DNA of 9,329 nucleotides from Chloroflexota bacterium (lineage in GTDB: Bacteria > Chloroflexota > Anaerolineae > Anaerolineales > Anaerolineaceae): NCBI GenBank assembly GCA_029265085.1, contig JAJUJY010000159.1, positions 1-9,329 on the forward strand. Direction: 5' to 3'. The notes under the pieces are model-generated. The model did not search any database. It worked only from the letters and a program-made list of their open reading frames with translations, and was not told the origin of the DNA. Both the position numbers and the translations under genes were made by a program. Shown here in pieces: positions 5,863 through 9,329 of this stretch (position 1 is its first letter; each line of letters starts with the position of its first letter).

Positions 5863-7170
5863 CTAAGCTTTCTTCATTTCTGCGATCAATGCATCACCAA
5901 ATTGGGATGTTTTTAATAAAGTTGCCCCTTCTGCATGCCGATAAAGATCATTGGTAAATTTTTTGGCAGCAATAACTTTTTCCATCGCATGAATGATCTG
6001 ATCGGCTGCTTCAGACCATCCCAGATAGCGCAGCATCATTTCCCCGGATAGGATCACAGAACTCGGATTAACGATGTCTTTTCCTGCATAGATAGGAGCT
6101 GTCCCATGGGTTGCTTCAAAGACTGCGGCTCCGGTTTCATAATTAATATTTGCCCCTGGAGCAATGCCTATTCCGCCAACCAGAGCAGCTAACGCATCCG
6201 AGAGATAATCCCCGTTAAGGTTTGGGGTAGCCAGCACATCGAAATCTTGTGGGCGCGTGATCGCAGCTTGAAACATGAAATCAGTGATGACATCTTTGAT
6301 CAATAGTTTACCTGAATCCAGGGCTGATTTTTGCTCTAGATTGGCTGCTTCCTCACCTTTAACGTTTTTCGTTCGTTCCCATTGAAGCCAGGTATATACC
6401 TGATCCTTAAATTCGCTTTCAGCCAGCTCATAACCCCAATTGCGAAATGCGCCTTCAGTGAACTTCATGATATTGCCCTTGTGGACCAGTGTAACACTGC
6501 GGCGCTGATTCGCGAGAGCCCAACGGATGGCTGCACGTACGAGTCTATGGGTTCCTTCTCTTGACACCGGTTTGATGCTGATGCCTGCGGATTGTGGGAA
6601 CCGAATGCGTTTGTAATCTTCCGGAAAATTGGTTTTCAGGAATTCAAGAAATTGTTTATTTTCCTCAGAGAAAGCAGCCATTTCAATACCGGCATAGATG
6701 TCCTCGGTATTTTCGCGGAATACAACCATATTAACTTTCTCAGGATGATGAATGGGTGATGGAACTCCTTCAAACCAACGGGATGGACGTTGGCATACAT
6801 ATAGGTCAAGGGCTTTTCGCATCGCAACATTGAGTGACCGGATGCCTTCGCCAACCGGTGTAGTTAATGGGCCTTTAATTCCAACTTTATACTTTTCAAA
6901 GGCGGCTAAGGTTTCATCTGGCAGCCAGGTTCCAAAGAGGTCAAAGGCTTTTTGCCCTGCATAAACCTCATGCCAAACGATTTTTCTTTTTTCTCCGTAA
7001 ACTGAAGCAATCGCAGCCTCAAAAACTCGCTGAGATGCTTTCCAAATATCTGTTCCGGAACCATCCCCTTCAATGTACGGAATGATGGGATAATCCGGTA
7101 CAGATAATACACCGTTTGCGATAGTTATCGCTGCGCCATCAACTTGGGGGAGTGGGGTATTCTTTTCCAT
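5863..7170 (-). CDS. icd: Isocitrate dehydrogenase, NADP-type (E. coli Icd family)
   Basis: Converts isocitrate to 2-oxoglutarate and CO2 while reducing NAD(P). From the ATG at 7170 the protein has 435 residues, compared with 416 in E. coli. Substrate-site blocks are present: [15 protein letters not shown] with S112 (equivalent to E. coli S113), [17 protein letters not shown] with K231, and the metal-binding N-L-N-G-D-Y-L-S-D with D321 and D325. About 14 extra residues before I-K-D-V-I-T-D (E-E-A-A-N-L-E region) recall cyanobacterial Icd. Of the E. coli residues that hold the NADP 2'-phosphate, Tyr345, Arg395 and Arg292' are kept, but Lys344 is Ile360 and Tyr391 is Asn407, so the cofactor preference is open. 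An upstream TTG (7218) would add 16 residues but lies inside the promoter. No ribosome binding site precedes the ATG, consistent with a leaderless mRNA. Confidence 0.95.
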
Positions 7171-7176
7171 ATTTAA

Positions 7177-7205
7177 ATTATAGTACGAAACTCGGAGAAC
7201 GTCAG
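7177..7205 (-). promoter_or_regulatory. icd-acnA promoter, predicted leaderless start
   Basis: On the minus strand CTGACG (7205-7200, 4 of 6 matches to the -35 consensus) is followed after exactly 17 bases by a perfect TATAAT (7182-7177). Only 6 bases separate the -10 box from the icd ATG at 7170, so transcription should begin at or within a base or two of the A of the ATG. There is no Shine-Dalgarno sequence. Confidence 0.7.
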
Positions 7206-7254: not shown

Positions 7255-7283
7255 TTGACAAACGTTTTTTCGCGTGCTATAAA
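7255..7283 (+). promoter_or_regulatory. Strong sigma70-type promoter of the small RNA/leader unit
   Basis: A perfect -35 box TTGACA (7255-7260) and TATAAA (7278-7283, 5 of 6 matches) are separated by exactly 17 bp. Transcription should start near 7289-7291, at an ATG at 7290. This is the best promoter in the window and drives the structured RNA ending at 7430. It may also drive the transporter genes by read-through. Confidence 0.82.
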
Positions 7284-7289
7284 ATTACC

Positions 7290-7367
7290 ATGTTGTTCAC
7301 CCAATTCGTTAAGCGTAACCCAAAGCATCAAAGCCTTCTCCTGGAAGGACGGGTTTCGTTTACCTGA
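7290..7367 (+). CDS. Putative 25-residue leaderless leader peptide or small protein
   Basis: An ATG at the predicted transcription start opens 25 sense codons ending in TGA at 7365-7367. The peptide begins MLFTQFVKRNP and ends S-L-L-L-E-G-R-V-S-F-T. It is basic, with no membrane segment. Codons 16-18 (7335-7343) are three consecutive leucine codons, CTT CTC CTG, which could be regulatory codons. The spacing from -10 box to ATG is 6 bases, the same as at the divergent icd start, which favours leaderless translation. Against it, an open frame of this length is not rare by chance, and the same bases form a strong RNA stem. It could be an attenuator peptide for the amino-acid transporter downstream, a stand-alone small protein, or nothing. 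Confidence 0.4.
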   Translation: MLFTQFVKRNPKHQSLLLEGRVSFT

Positions 7368-7404
7368 ATCTGGATCATAAGATTTAGTTGGTAATAGACA
7401 AGAT

Positions 7405-7430
7405 AGCCCTTCCTTCCGGAAGGGCTTTTT
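7405..7430 (+). terminator. Intrinsic terminator of the small RNA/leader unit
   Basis: AGCCCTTCC (7405-7413) and GGAAGGGCT (7418-7426) form a perfect 9-bp stem with a TTCC tetraloop (7414-7417), followed at once by a T-run broken by one G. This is a textbook Rho-independent terminator. It lies 183 bp before the transporter gene, so it either ends a separate RNA or attenuates the transporter transcript. Confidence 0.92.
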
Positions 7431-7486
7431 GTTTATGCGGTGAGATTTGGAGGTGTCTTATTGGTTGATGGAATGGGTGTAGTCAG

Positions 7487-7512
7487 GGGCAGGCCGCACA
7501 CACGGCCTGCCC
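7487..7512. repeat. GC-rich REP-like palindrome
   Basis: GGGCAGGCCG (7487-7496) and CGGCCTGCCC (7503-7512) form a perfect 10-bp stem around CACACA. It is far richer in GC than its surroundings. The preceding TGTAGTCAGGGGC resembles the GTAGGGGC start of dispersed palindromes that I recall from Chloroflexota and cyanobacterial genomes; that likeness is from memory. A T-run (7530-7537) follows too far away for a good terminator, though weak termination is possible. Confidence 0.5.
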
Positions 7513-7612: not shown

Positions 7613-8521
7613 ATGAAATTTACCAGGTTTTTCTTAATTAGTAGTGTGTTGGTGATGTTGCTGCTGGCCGCATGTGGTGGAGCTCCATCTGCTGCGGAGG
7701 TGAATGACGGCGTGACTCCAGCAGCAGAATCGCTGGCTGTAGAAAATACGGCAGCCGCTCAGCCTGAAGGCTGCCTGGGCAGTGCAGAAACTGCAATTGT
7801 AGATCTTGGCTGCCGCGAAGTGACCATTGCTGTGGAAAATGCATACCTGCCCTTTAACTATATTTCCTTAGAAACAGGCGAACCAGGCGGATGGGATTAC
7901 GAAGCCTGGGCAGAAATATGTACTCGCCTGCACTGCCAACCGGTTTTTGTCGAGGCAGCCTGGGATGGCATGATCCAGGCGGTTTCGGATGGGCAATACG
8001 ATCTTGCGGGTGATGGCATTACGATTACGGACGAGCGCAAAGAGATTGTTGATTTTTCGATTGGGTATATCCAAATCCAGCAGCGCTTGCTGGTGCGCAA
8101 AGGAGAAACACGATTTGCCAGTATCGAAGAATTTGTTGCCAATCCCGAATTAGCTATGGGAACTCAGGTGAGTACGACTAATTATGAGACGGCAGTCCAA
8201 TATCTTTCTGAAGATCGAATCCAGGCTTTTGAGCAATTCCCCTTTGCTGTACAGGCGCTAATTGCTGGAGACGTAGATGCAGTGATTATTGATGAAGTGG
8301 TCGGTATGGGGTATATGGGGCAGAATGCGGAAGATTTGGAATTAATTGGCCCGTCCATTTCTTCAGATGCGTTAGGTTTTGCCTTCCCGAAAGGCAGCGA
8401 TCTTGTTGATCCGGTTAATCAAGCAATTAAAGCCATGATGGCGGATGGTGCACTGGCGGCATTAAATGTCAAGTTCTTTGGACCTGAATTTGATATCACC
8501 TACGATGATATTCAGAATTAA
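7613..8521 (+). CDS. Amino-acid ABC transporter substrate-binding lipoprotein (SBP_bac_3)
   Basis: A 302-residue extracytoplasmic solute-binding protein. It opens with K2/R5, a hydrophobic segment and the lipobox L18-A19-A20-C21, so it is cleaved by signal peptidase II and tethered by lipid at C21. Residues 22-52 are an Ala/Glu/Pro-rich spacer. The family-3 fold (PF00497) follows: V-T-I-A-V-E at 70-75, the ligand-carboxylate arginine R142 in I-T-I-T-D-E-R-K-E-I-V-D-F-S, G-T at 183-184 and the V-D-A-V-I-I-D motif at 221-227. C103 and C108 sit where E. coli HisJ has its disulfide pair. C54 and C67 may form a second. The ligand is not predictable beyond a polar amino acid. AAGGAG lies 9 bases before the ATG. 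The permease gene follows after 43 bp, so they form an operon. Confidence 0.93.
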   Translation: MKFTRFFLISSVLVMLLLAACGGAPSAAEVNDGVTPAAESLAVENTAAAQPEGCLGSAETAIVDLGCREVTIAVENAYLPFNYISLETGEPGGWDYEAWAEICTRLHCQPVFVEAAWDGMIQAVSDGQYDLAGDGITITDERKEIVDFSIGYIQIQQRLLVRKGETRFASIEEFVANPELAMGTQVSTTNYETAVQYLSEDRIQAFEQFPFAVQALIAGDVDAVIIDEVVGMGYMGQNAEDLELIGPSISSDALGFAFPKGSDLVDPVNQAIKAMMADGALAALNVKFFGPEFDITYDDIQN

Positions 8522-8564: not shown

Positions 8565-9329
8565 ATGATTGGAAAACAAGCTTTGAAATGGTCCGAGGGT
8601 GCGGCGGTGACCGATAAACTCCGCATGCGGTTACGTAGCCGCTTAGCAGCATTTCCGTGGTGGCTCGCGGCGATCTTTTTGATCGCCGCAATTGCCGCGA
8701 TTACGATCAGTACAAACCAGGATTACCGTGAAGCATTTAATTTTATCAAGGCAGGTATTGGTGTTACTTTATCGACAACCTTAATTGCTTTTGTGATTGC
8801 CCTTTTGTTGGGGTTGTTGGCCGGATTAGGACGCATCTCTAACTCCGTTTTCTTTAAAAACACAGCCACTTTATATATAGAGTTGATCCGCGGTGTGCCC
8901 ATGTTAGTTTTGATTTTCTTTATTGCGTTTGTGGGCATGCCTGCGATTGTTGATGGATTAAATCGTCTGGGAGAATTATTTATTTCCATGCAGCTTGTCG
9001 GGGTAGGAGAGGTGTTAACTAGCTTAAAAAATAATGCGATATCGATGAATGTGCGGGCAATTGCTGCGCTTTCTATTACGTACGGCGCATTTCTGGCTGA
9101 GATATTTCGGGCTGGGATTGAATCAATTGGGCGTGGTCAAATGGAGGCAGCTCGTTCGCAGGGTATGACCTATGCTCAAGCGATGCGGTATGTGATTTTG
9201 CCACAAGCGATTCGAAATGTACTGCCTGCGTTGAGCAACGATTTTGTATCCATGTTAAAAGACTCATCGCTGGTTTCTGTATTGGCGGTGCGTGACATTA
9301 CCCAAATTGCCCGTTTATACGCCGGACAT
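8565..9329 (+). CDS. Amino-acid ABC transporter permease, HisM/GlnP family (3' end cut by window)
   Basis: An open frame of 255 codons runs off the window end. The product is the membrane-spanning subunit of a polar amino-acid importer. Visible parts are a basic cytoplasmic N-terminus, a first membrane helix at about 32-49, the helix G-I-G-V-T-L-S-T-T-L-I at 64-74 typical of the His/Glu/Gln/Arg/opine permease subfamily, and E-L-I-R-G-V-P at 106-112. The EAA loop lies at 194-213 (E194-A-A-R-S-Q-G200 ... I211-L-P213), the docking site for the ATPase. The loop between the third and fourth segments (about 125-162) is longer than in enterobacterial permeases. The start is ATG 8565. Only a weak purine stretch (GAAAGAGAAA) precedes it, and ATG 8625 is a less likely alternative. 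The partner binding protein is upstream, and the ATPase gene is expected downstream. Confidence 0.93.
   Translation, partial: MIGKQALKWSEGAAVTDKLRMRLRSRLAAFPWWLAAIFLIAAIAAITISTNQDYREAFNFIKAGIGVTLSTTLIAFVIALLLGLLAGLGRISNSVFFKNTATLYIELIRGVPMLVLIFFIAFVGMPAIVDGLNRLGELFISMQLVGVGEVLTSLKNNAISMNVRAIAALSITYGAFLAEIFRAGIESIGRGQMEAARSQGMTYAQAMRYVILPQAIRNVLPALSNDFVSMLKDSSLVSVLAVRDITQIARLYAGH

Follow-up and report, generated by a model that had tools for sequence, protein, structure and literature searches.

A predicted leaderless leader-peptide attenuator ahead of an amino acid transporter in Anaerolineae, with related leaders before other amino acid genes

The 9,329-nt stretch of Chloroflexota DNA analysed here (the window) carries at 7255–7430 what we read, with a probability of roughly 0.9, as a ribosome-mediated transcription attenuator of the trp/his type with a leaderless leader peptide. 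The mechanism itself is known; what would be new is its presence in Chloroflexota, the predicted leaderless start and a sensor that appears to respond to three amino acids. The original prediction described this region as a self-contained RNA unit without a gene. Its promoter, three hairpins and terminator are real and conserved, and the hairpins recur at the same positions when 7289–7433 is folded. The prediction overlooked the open reading frame (ORF) listed in Table 1, and because about half of the unit is this short leader ORF, the unit is not a stand-alone structured RNA.

Table 1. Features of the proposed attenuator and of the genes around it.
Feature	Position	Strand	Details	Basis
Promoter	7255–7283	+	TTGACA 7255–7260, 17-nt spacer, TATAAA 7278–7283, TG 7275–7276	sequence
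Leader ORF	7290–7367	+	25 codons, MLFTQFVKRNPKHQSLLLEGRVSFT, stop TGA 7365–7367	open in 46/46 leaders
First hairpin	7310–7362	+	5' arm over first control codons; inner hairpin 7334–7348	fold
Putative control codons	7311–7328	+	AAG CGT (Lys-Arg) 7311–7316, AAG CAT (Lys-His) 7323–7328	aligned relatives
Antiterminator 5' strand	7343–7354	+	GGAAGGA 7343–7349, GGGU 7351–7354; inside ORF	duplex prediction
Second hairpin	7364–7387	+		fold
Intrinsic terminator	7405–7430	+	stem 7405–7426, 9 pairs, T5 7426–7430	fold, terminator scan
Antiterminator 3' strand	7406–7417	+	terminator 5' arm and loop	duplex prediction
Amino acid ABC transporter substrate-binding lipoprotein	7613–8521	+	family 3; gene proposed to be under control	Pfam PF00497
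ABC transporter permease	8565–9329	+	truncated at window end	PF00528
Isocitrate dehydrogenase (icd)		−		PF00180
Aconitase		−		PF00330

The permease and the binding protein likely form one operon, whose first gene starts 182 nt past the terminator. Orthologs of the binding protein were found in 46 of the 147 genomes of one family (59–78% identity over the matched part, E ≤ 1e-100), a family in the same class as an Anaerolineales MAG (L065 = G005). Upstream of 45 of the 46 orthologs, the same parts occur in the same order: a TTGAC-type −35 box, 16–17 nt, a TATAAA-like −10 box, an ATG 6–10 nt further on, a Lys/Arg/His-rich ORF of 20–33 codons, a terminator hairpin with a U-run, and the gene. For the 46th (G479, L166) the contig end falls inside the leader, and this sequence was left out, so that the set of 46 leaders used below comprises 45 relatives and the window. 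Seven of the 46 starts (L130, L133, L134, L136, L145, L156 and L173) were set by hand after reading, since an earlier ATG lay 1 nt past the −10 box in four and the −10 box read TAAAGT in three; L135, L141, L143 and L147 were exchanged for the longer sequences L172–L175. When aligned as nucleotides, with rows cut on the ATG, the leaders have a mean column identity of 40%, and past the ATG the near-invariant columns lie in the terminator, in the purine segment GAAGG and at the AA of a Lys codon. Four orthologs from outside the family (L099, L100, L102 and L103) lack, by eye, a unit of this kind upstream. A DNA search of a class sample matched 9 of 396 genomes at E ≤ 0.01, and the two matches followed, G206 and G275, were real; blastn with 201 bases against 80 icd loci and in five genomes gave matches at chance level only, and a search of viral contigs for relatives of the binding protein found none.

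On the other strand, the closest icd found is that of a Chloroflexota MAG (73%). We note within 7168–7205 a promoter-like CTGACG-17-TATAAT (minus strand, 7205–7177) and an ATG at 7170 in the frame of icd. As the promoter-like site ends 6 nt before this in-frame ATG, icd itself may be leaderless.

The TTGACA-N17-TATAAA promoter is present as originally predicted. TTGAC and TAnA are invariant across the 46 sequences of the alignment (A2), an invariance that is partly one of choice because the same motifs served to locate the promoters. A consensus promoter scan of the window misses this promoter, since the scan accepts only T as the last −10 base. The ATG at 7290 stands 6 nt past the −10 box, which leaves no space for a Shine-Dalgarno site; the window therefore lacks this usual, non-defining trait of attenuator leader peptides. 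In all 46 leaders an ATG lies within the stretch after the −10 box (next commonest triplet, 30/46), where the script required one. From this arrangement, transcription is predicted to start at, or a few bases from, the ATG, and leaderless initiation is predicted for the ORF.

By three tests of its sequence, of frame, composition and spacing, the leader ORF is real. Codons 2–19 hold no stop in any of the 46 leaders, as against 31 and 40 leaders with stops in the other two frames; without the seven hand-set starts the counts are 0, 27 and 35 of 39. Lys, Arg and His together account for 29% of residues in the ORF frame and for 16% and 14% in the others. The ATG and the aligned Lys column are 21–39 nt apart, a distance divisible by three in 41 of the 46 leaders; the five exceptions (26 nt) are probably the L154-type clade, which MAFFT seems to have misplaced by one base. 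At the first aligned control position Lys is found in 39 leaders and Arg in five, and the following position is Arg or His in 37. Lys occurs in the ORF of all 46 leaders, Arg in 43 and His in 38; all three occur in 35, and one is missing from the other 11. Among 15 close pairs, the first 14 codons differ 15, 21 and 41 times at codon positions 1, 2 and 3, and of the differing codons 21 are synonymous and 43 non-synonymous. Counted across the complete ORF (18 pairs), the position differences are 59, 64 and 83, and 33 synonymous against 118 non-synonymous codons mean that the peptide sequence is kept only loosely. In the window itself the Lys/Arg/His codons are clear, and the top NCBIfam match of the binding protein is TIGR01096 (Lys/Arg/Orn-binding) at 108.6 bits, below the cut-off of 256.35. 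Lys, Arg and His are the putative signals sensed and may also be the cargo of the transporter.

The fold of 7289–7433 has a free energy of −47 kcal/mol (z −3.62), and 1 of 200 shuffles was as stable. The terminator, at the place originally described, has nine pairs and T5. The interchangeable arms described at the outset are real and extend further than claimed: GGAAGGA at 7343–7349 pairs with UCCUUCC at 7411–7417, and GGGU at 7351–7354 with GCCC at 7406–7409. This duplex is predicted at −18.4 kcal/mol and was equalled by none of 200 shuffles, and the purine segment can pair either inside the first hairpin or with the terminator 5' arm and loop. On consensus scans alone the promoter and terminator of the window are no better than chance; the terminator scan returned two sites against 1.7 expected, both being one palindrome read on two strands. 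The unit stands above chance because the order of its parts is kept before the binding-protein genes of 45 of the 46 relatives. A terminator-like hairpin was detected by script between ORF and gene in all 46 leaders. In 35 of the 46 leaders, pairing with the terminator 5' arm and loop is stronger than in dinucleotide shuffles at p ≤ 0.05, and 22 leaders reach p ≤ 0.01 (median −16.4 against −10.5 kcal/mol for shuffles); the other 11 are no better than shuffles at 0.05. A leader's own terminator has a mean rank of 0.21 among swapped terminators where 0.5 is expected. As the leaders are related and not independent, these values are not strict probabilities. Sequence comparison establishes the alternative pairing and the terminator, as it does the ORF and the conservation of its codons.

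We modelled the choice between the two pairings with partition functions for RNA in which the 3' arm of the terminator does not yet exist, representing the ribosome by assumed masks. The stall mask covers everything between the 5' end and a point 14 nt beyond the first base of the codon that follows Lys. The stop mask begins 17 nt ahead of the first base of the stop codon and ends 13 nt behind it. The antiterminator probability exceeds 0.5 in 44 of the 46 leaders with a ribosome at the Lys-Arg/His codons, in 15 as free RNA and in 14 with a ribosome at the stop. The window gives 0.83 when stalled, 0.00 at the stop and 0.80 as free RNA; since its free RNA already favours the antiterminator, it is the ribosome at the stop codon that would have to exert control. 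In L173 the antiterminator has a probability of 0.00 with a stalled ribosome. Computationally, and with exceptions, a stalled ribosome is predicted to free a mutually exclusive antiterminator.

In the mechanism that we propose, the RNA would begin at or near the ATG and a ribosome would load on its bare 5' end. If the tRNA for Lys, Arg or His were uncharged, the ribosome would stall at AAG CGT ... AAG CAT and block the first hairpin, whereupon the purine segment GGAAGGA-C-GGGU would seize the terminator 5' arm and loop. With the terminator blocked, RNA polymerase would continue into the transporter genes. When basic amino acids are abundant, the ribosome would get to the stop at 7365 and hide the purine segment, the terminator would fold, and the transcript would end after ∼140 nt.

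The leader peptide might instead act on translation, or the upstream ORF might be constitutive and its terminator an ordinary one, with a second promoter ahead of 7613. The gap between terminator and gene in the window would give room for this, as would the GGAGG[TA] that 36 of the 46 leaders have no more than 160 nt past the terminator. The conservation of the terminator with its U-run, and of the pairing into its loop, speaks against it, as does one relative (L101) whose gene begins ∼30 nt past the terminator, and we consider such an arrangement improbable.

The stretch past the terminator (7449–7512 in the window) matches no Rfam family. It contains GGAGGTGT at 7449–7456 and a strong hairpin at 7487–7512, and by eye several relatives share GGAGGTG...AARAAGAC past the terminator. 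GCC[AG]AAG occurs within 330 nt in the downstream stretch of 10 of the 46 leaders. The stretch and its counterparts are possibly a second control element. The stretch bears some likeness to the lysine riboswitch consensus, which Rfam did not support at E ≤ 5 in 12 relatives. Four relatives (L164, L165, L169 and L171) have a second tiny ORF between the terminator and the binding-protein gene that starts MKK (MKKYKI in three) and follows a Shine-Dalgarno-like GGAGG.

A covariance model built from the 46 leaders (R1) matched 106 of the 147 family genomes at E ≤ 0.01, many of them more than once, with weak and 3'-end-only matches included. Among the more than 100 matches listed, we hand-picked 40 further loci, mostly full-length, that do not precede the ortholog. 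In a class sample, R1 matched 16 of 249 genomes (20 loci) at E ≤ 1e-4, of which 14 loci were used; the match of G206 itself and five confined to the 3' part were left out. In a phylum sample, matches at E ≤ 1e-5 came from 11 of 251 genomes, each already part of the earlier class sample and none newly drawn. The resulting second set of 54 loci brings the total to 100 leaders; eight of its starts were set by hand (L211, L212, L240, L245, L248, L250, L255 and L257), L250 starts with TTG and L242 with GTG. In these 54 ORFs, which the script selected at 12–45 codons, no in-frame stop occurs in codons 2–16, whereas 23 and 29 of them have one in the other two frames. Where promoters were read, the ATG mostly lies 10 nt past the −10 box; the two leuA leaders are not leaderless by this reading because their starts lie further away. 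In this wider set, 31 of 53 leaders have antiterminator pairing better than shuffles at 0.05 and 22 do not, and for L208 the script found no terminator.

In all 54 picked loci, the downstream gene serves amino acid synthesis, activation or transport or, in L206, encodes a family-5 peptide-type binding protein, as assigned by BLAST to 12 representatives taken from the same 54. Pfam places L206 in SBP_bac_5 and L210 in SBP_bac_3. An NCBIfam scan of ten representatives put argG, carA, lysX, hisD, hisG and hisS above curated cut-offs and leuA and aspartate kinase above those of subfamily-level models (PRK03739.1; TIGR00657); a homocitrate/isopropylmalate-synthase-like representative fell just below the cut-offs of both kinds, and the binding protein of L208 is closest to TIGR01096, below its cut-off. 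The leader peptides contain RRRARR (argG), HHHH (hisD, hisG), HPHH (hisS), LLNLLSTLL (leuA), and MTTTTT and MMYMSMRTMTT (aspartate kinase). In a label-permutation test over the 100 leaders, which are related sequences and not independent, Arg codons mark the argG/carA leaders (p<1/20000, n=25), His codons those of his genes (p=0.0003, n=3), Leu codons those of leuA (p=0.0002, n=2) and Thr/Met codons those of aspartate kinase (p=0.0003, n=2), and the class of the window (n=46) is enriched in His (p<1/20000) and in Lys+Arg+His (p=0.0017). Enrichment is not significant for Lys before homocitrate-synthase-like genes (p=0.11, n=6) or for Lys+Arg before lysX (p=0.72, n=6). The trpE model scored above its cut-off in 11 of 61 genomes, and a limited promoter-ATG scan of the regions upstream of these genes detected no leader, which leaves Trp control by such leaders unsupported. 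As side observations, the Lys-codon leaders of L239 and other synthase-like genes, whose enrichment is the non-significant one just given, hint at homocitrate synthase (lysine) and not leucine synthesis, and the two aspartate kinase leaders, L243 and L262, differ in that one is Met- and Thr-rich and the other has five consecutive Thr codons, which suggests different control amino acids.

A riboswitch or T-box, in which binding of an amino acid or uncharged tRNA by the RNA itself would switch the terminator and the ORF would be incidental, would share the general plan of a terminator and alternative pairing before an amino acid transporter. It would not need an open frame or codons that follow the pathway. 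In agreement with the lack of a known family reported at first, no Rfam family reached its gathering score for the window, the best relaxed match being an unrelated sRNA model (E 0.029, far under its gathering score), and 12 relatives had no T-box or amino acid riboswitch match at E ≤ 5. We give such a reading very little weight. Least credible is the trans-acting small RNA also proposed at the start, with its own promoter and terminator, which the strong fold and the expected terminated product of ∼140 nt would suit, because the unit precedes the ortholog in 46 family genomes (by its remaining end in one), amino acid or peptide genes follow it in 45 of 46 orthologs and all 54 hand-picked loci, and the frame of its ORF is kept open. 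The suggestion of a switch or attenuator holds, and that of control over the downstream amino acid transporter probably does.

Coupling between transcription and translation has its textbook example in leader-peptide attenuation, and the thr and ilv leaders, too, are classical attenuators of amino acid operons. The trp and his operon attenuators, as described in the available text of PMC9413887 and PMC3896937, share with the window a leader peptide with control codons, an antiterminator that competes with an intrinsic terminator, and amino acid genes. Unlike them, the window combines a predicted leaderless start, a transporter, mixed Lys/Arg/His codons and a Chloroflexota host. It also differs in that no Rfam amino acid leader family reaches its gathering threshold, Phe_leader matching weakly, through the terminator (21 bits against 55). 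For Corynebacterium glutamicum, formation of an attenuator leader peptide that lacks a ribosome-binding site has been recorded (PMC4046766, where formation of the ilvBNC leader in this way is cited as a title). As far as its accessible text goes, that paper accepts leaderless small mRNAs in four of eight cases; the likeness lies in the leader peptide without a ribosome-binding site, and the differences are the phylum (Actinobacteria) and the genes (ilvBNC, trpE, leuA, aroF). Histidine leader peptides of Firmicutes have His codons, a terminator and an antiterminator outside Proteobacteria; they belong to another phylum, and the word 'leaderless' is absent from the available text of PMC2965389 and PMC9413887. 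In Bacillus subtilis, ribosome-mediated attenuation precedes an ABC transporter, bmrCD, as in the window, whereas that transporter is a multidrug one that answers antibiotics and does not serve nutrient uptake, according to the part of PMC4191407 at hand. To the knowledge of the authors of a 2010 survey, no leader-peptide system had been demonstrated outside Proteobacteria and Actinobacteria until they added cases from Firmicutes, and the main text of that survey does not contain 'Chloroflex' (PMC2965389). Of 12 Chloroflexi genomes, 4 were predicted to have leaderless genes (PMC3160421, available text), and the accessible part of PMC4833913 mentions Chloroflexi solely as having too few genomes for a judgement. 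Within the accessible portions of the open-access literature, to which subscription papers and preprints do not belong, we found no report of such attenuators in Chloroflexota; two texts with both 'Anaerolineae' and 'leader peptide' meant, in those portions, export and antibiotic-peptide leaders.

We think it likely that Anaerolineae possess a modular regulon of mostly leaderless attenuators built on one frame (a promoter, an ATG at the first bases of the transcript, control codons in the arm of the first hairpin and a purine segment that seizes the terminator arm and loop) with codons reset to follow the supply of Arg, Lys, His, Leu or Thr/Met, the version in the window pooling three basic amino acids to gate uptake. 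Attenuators across a Chloroflexota class, with predicted loading of ribosomes on bare 5' ends, would form a natural set for testing leaderless pacing of RNA polymerase. Their control codons may also provide substrate hints for transporters and enzymes beyond what can be assigned from sequence alone.
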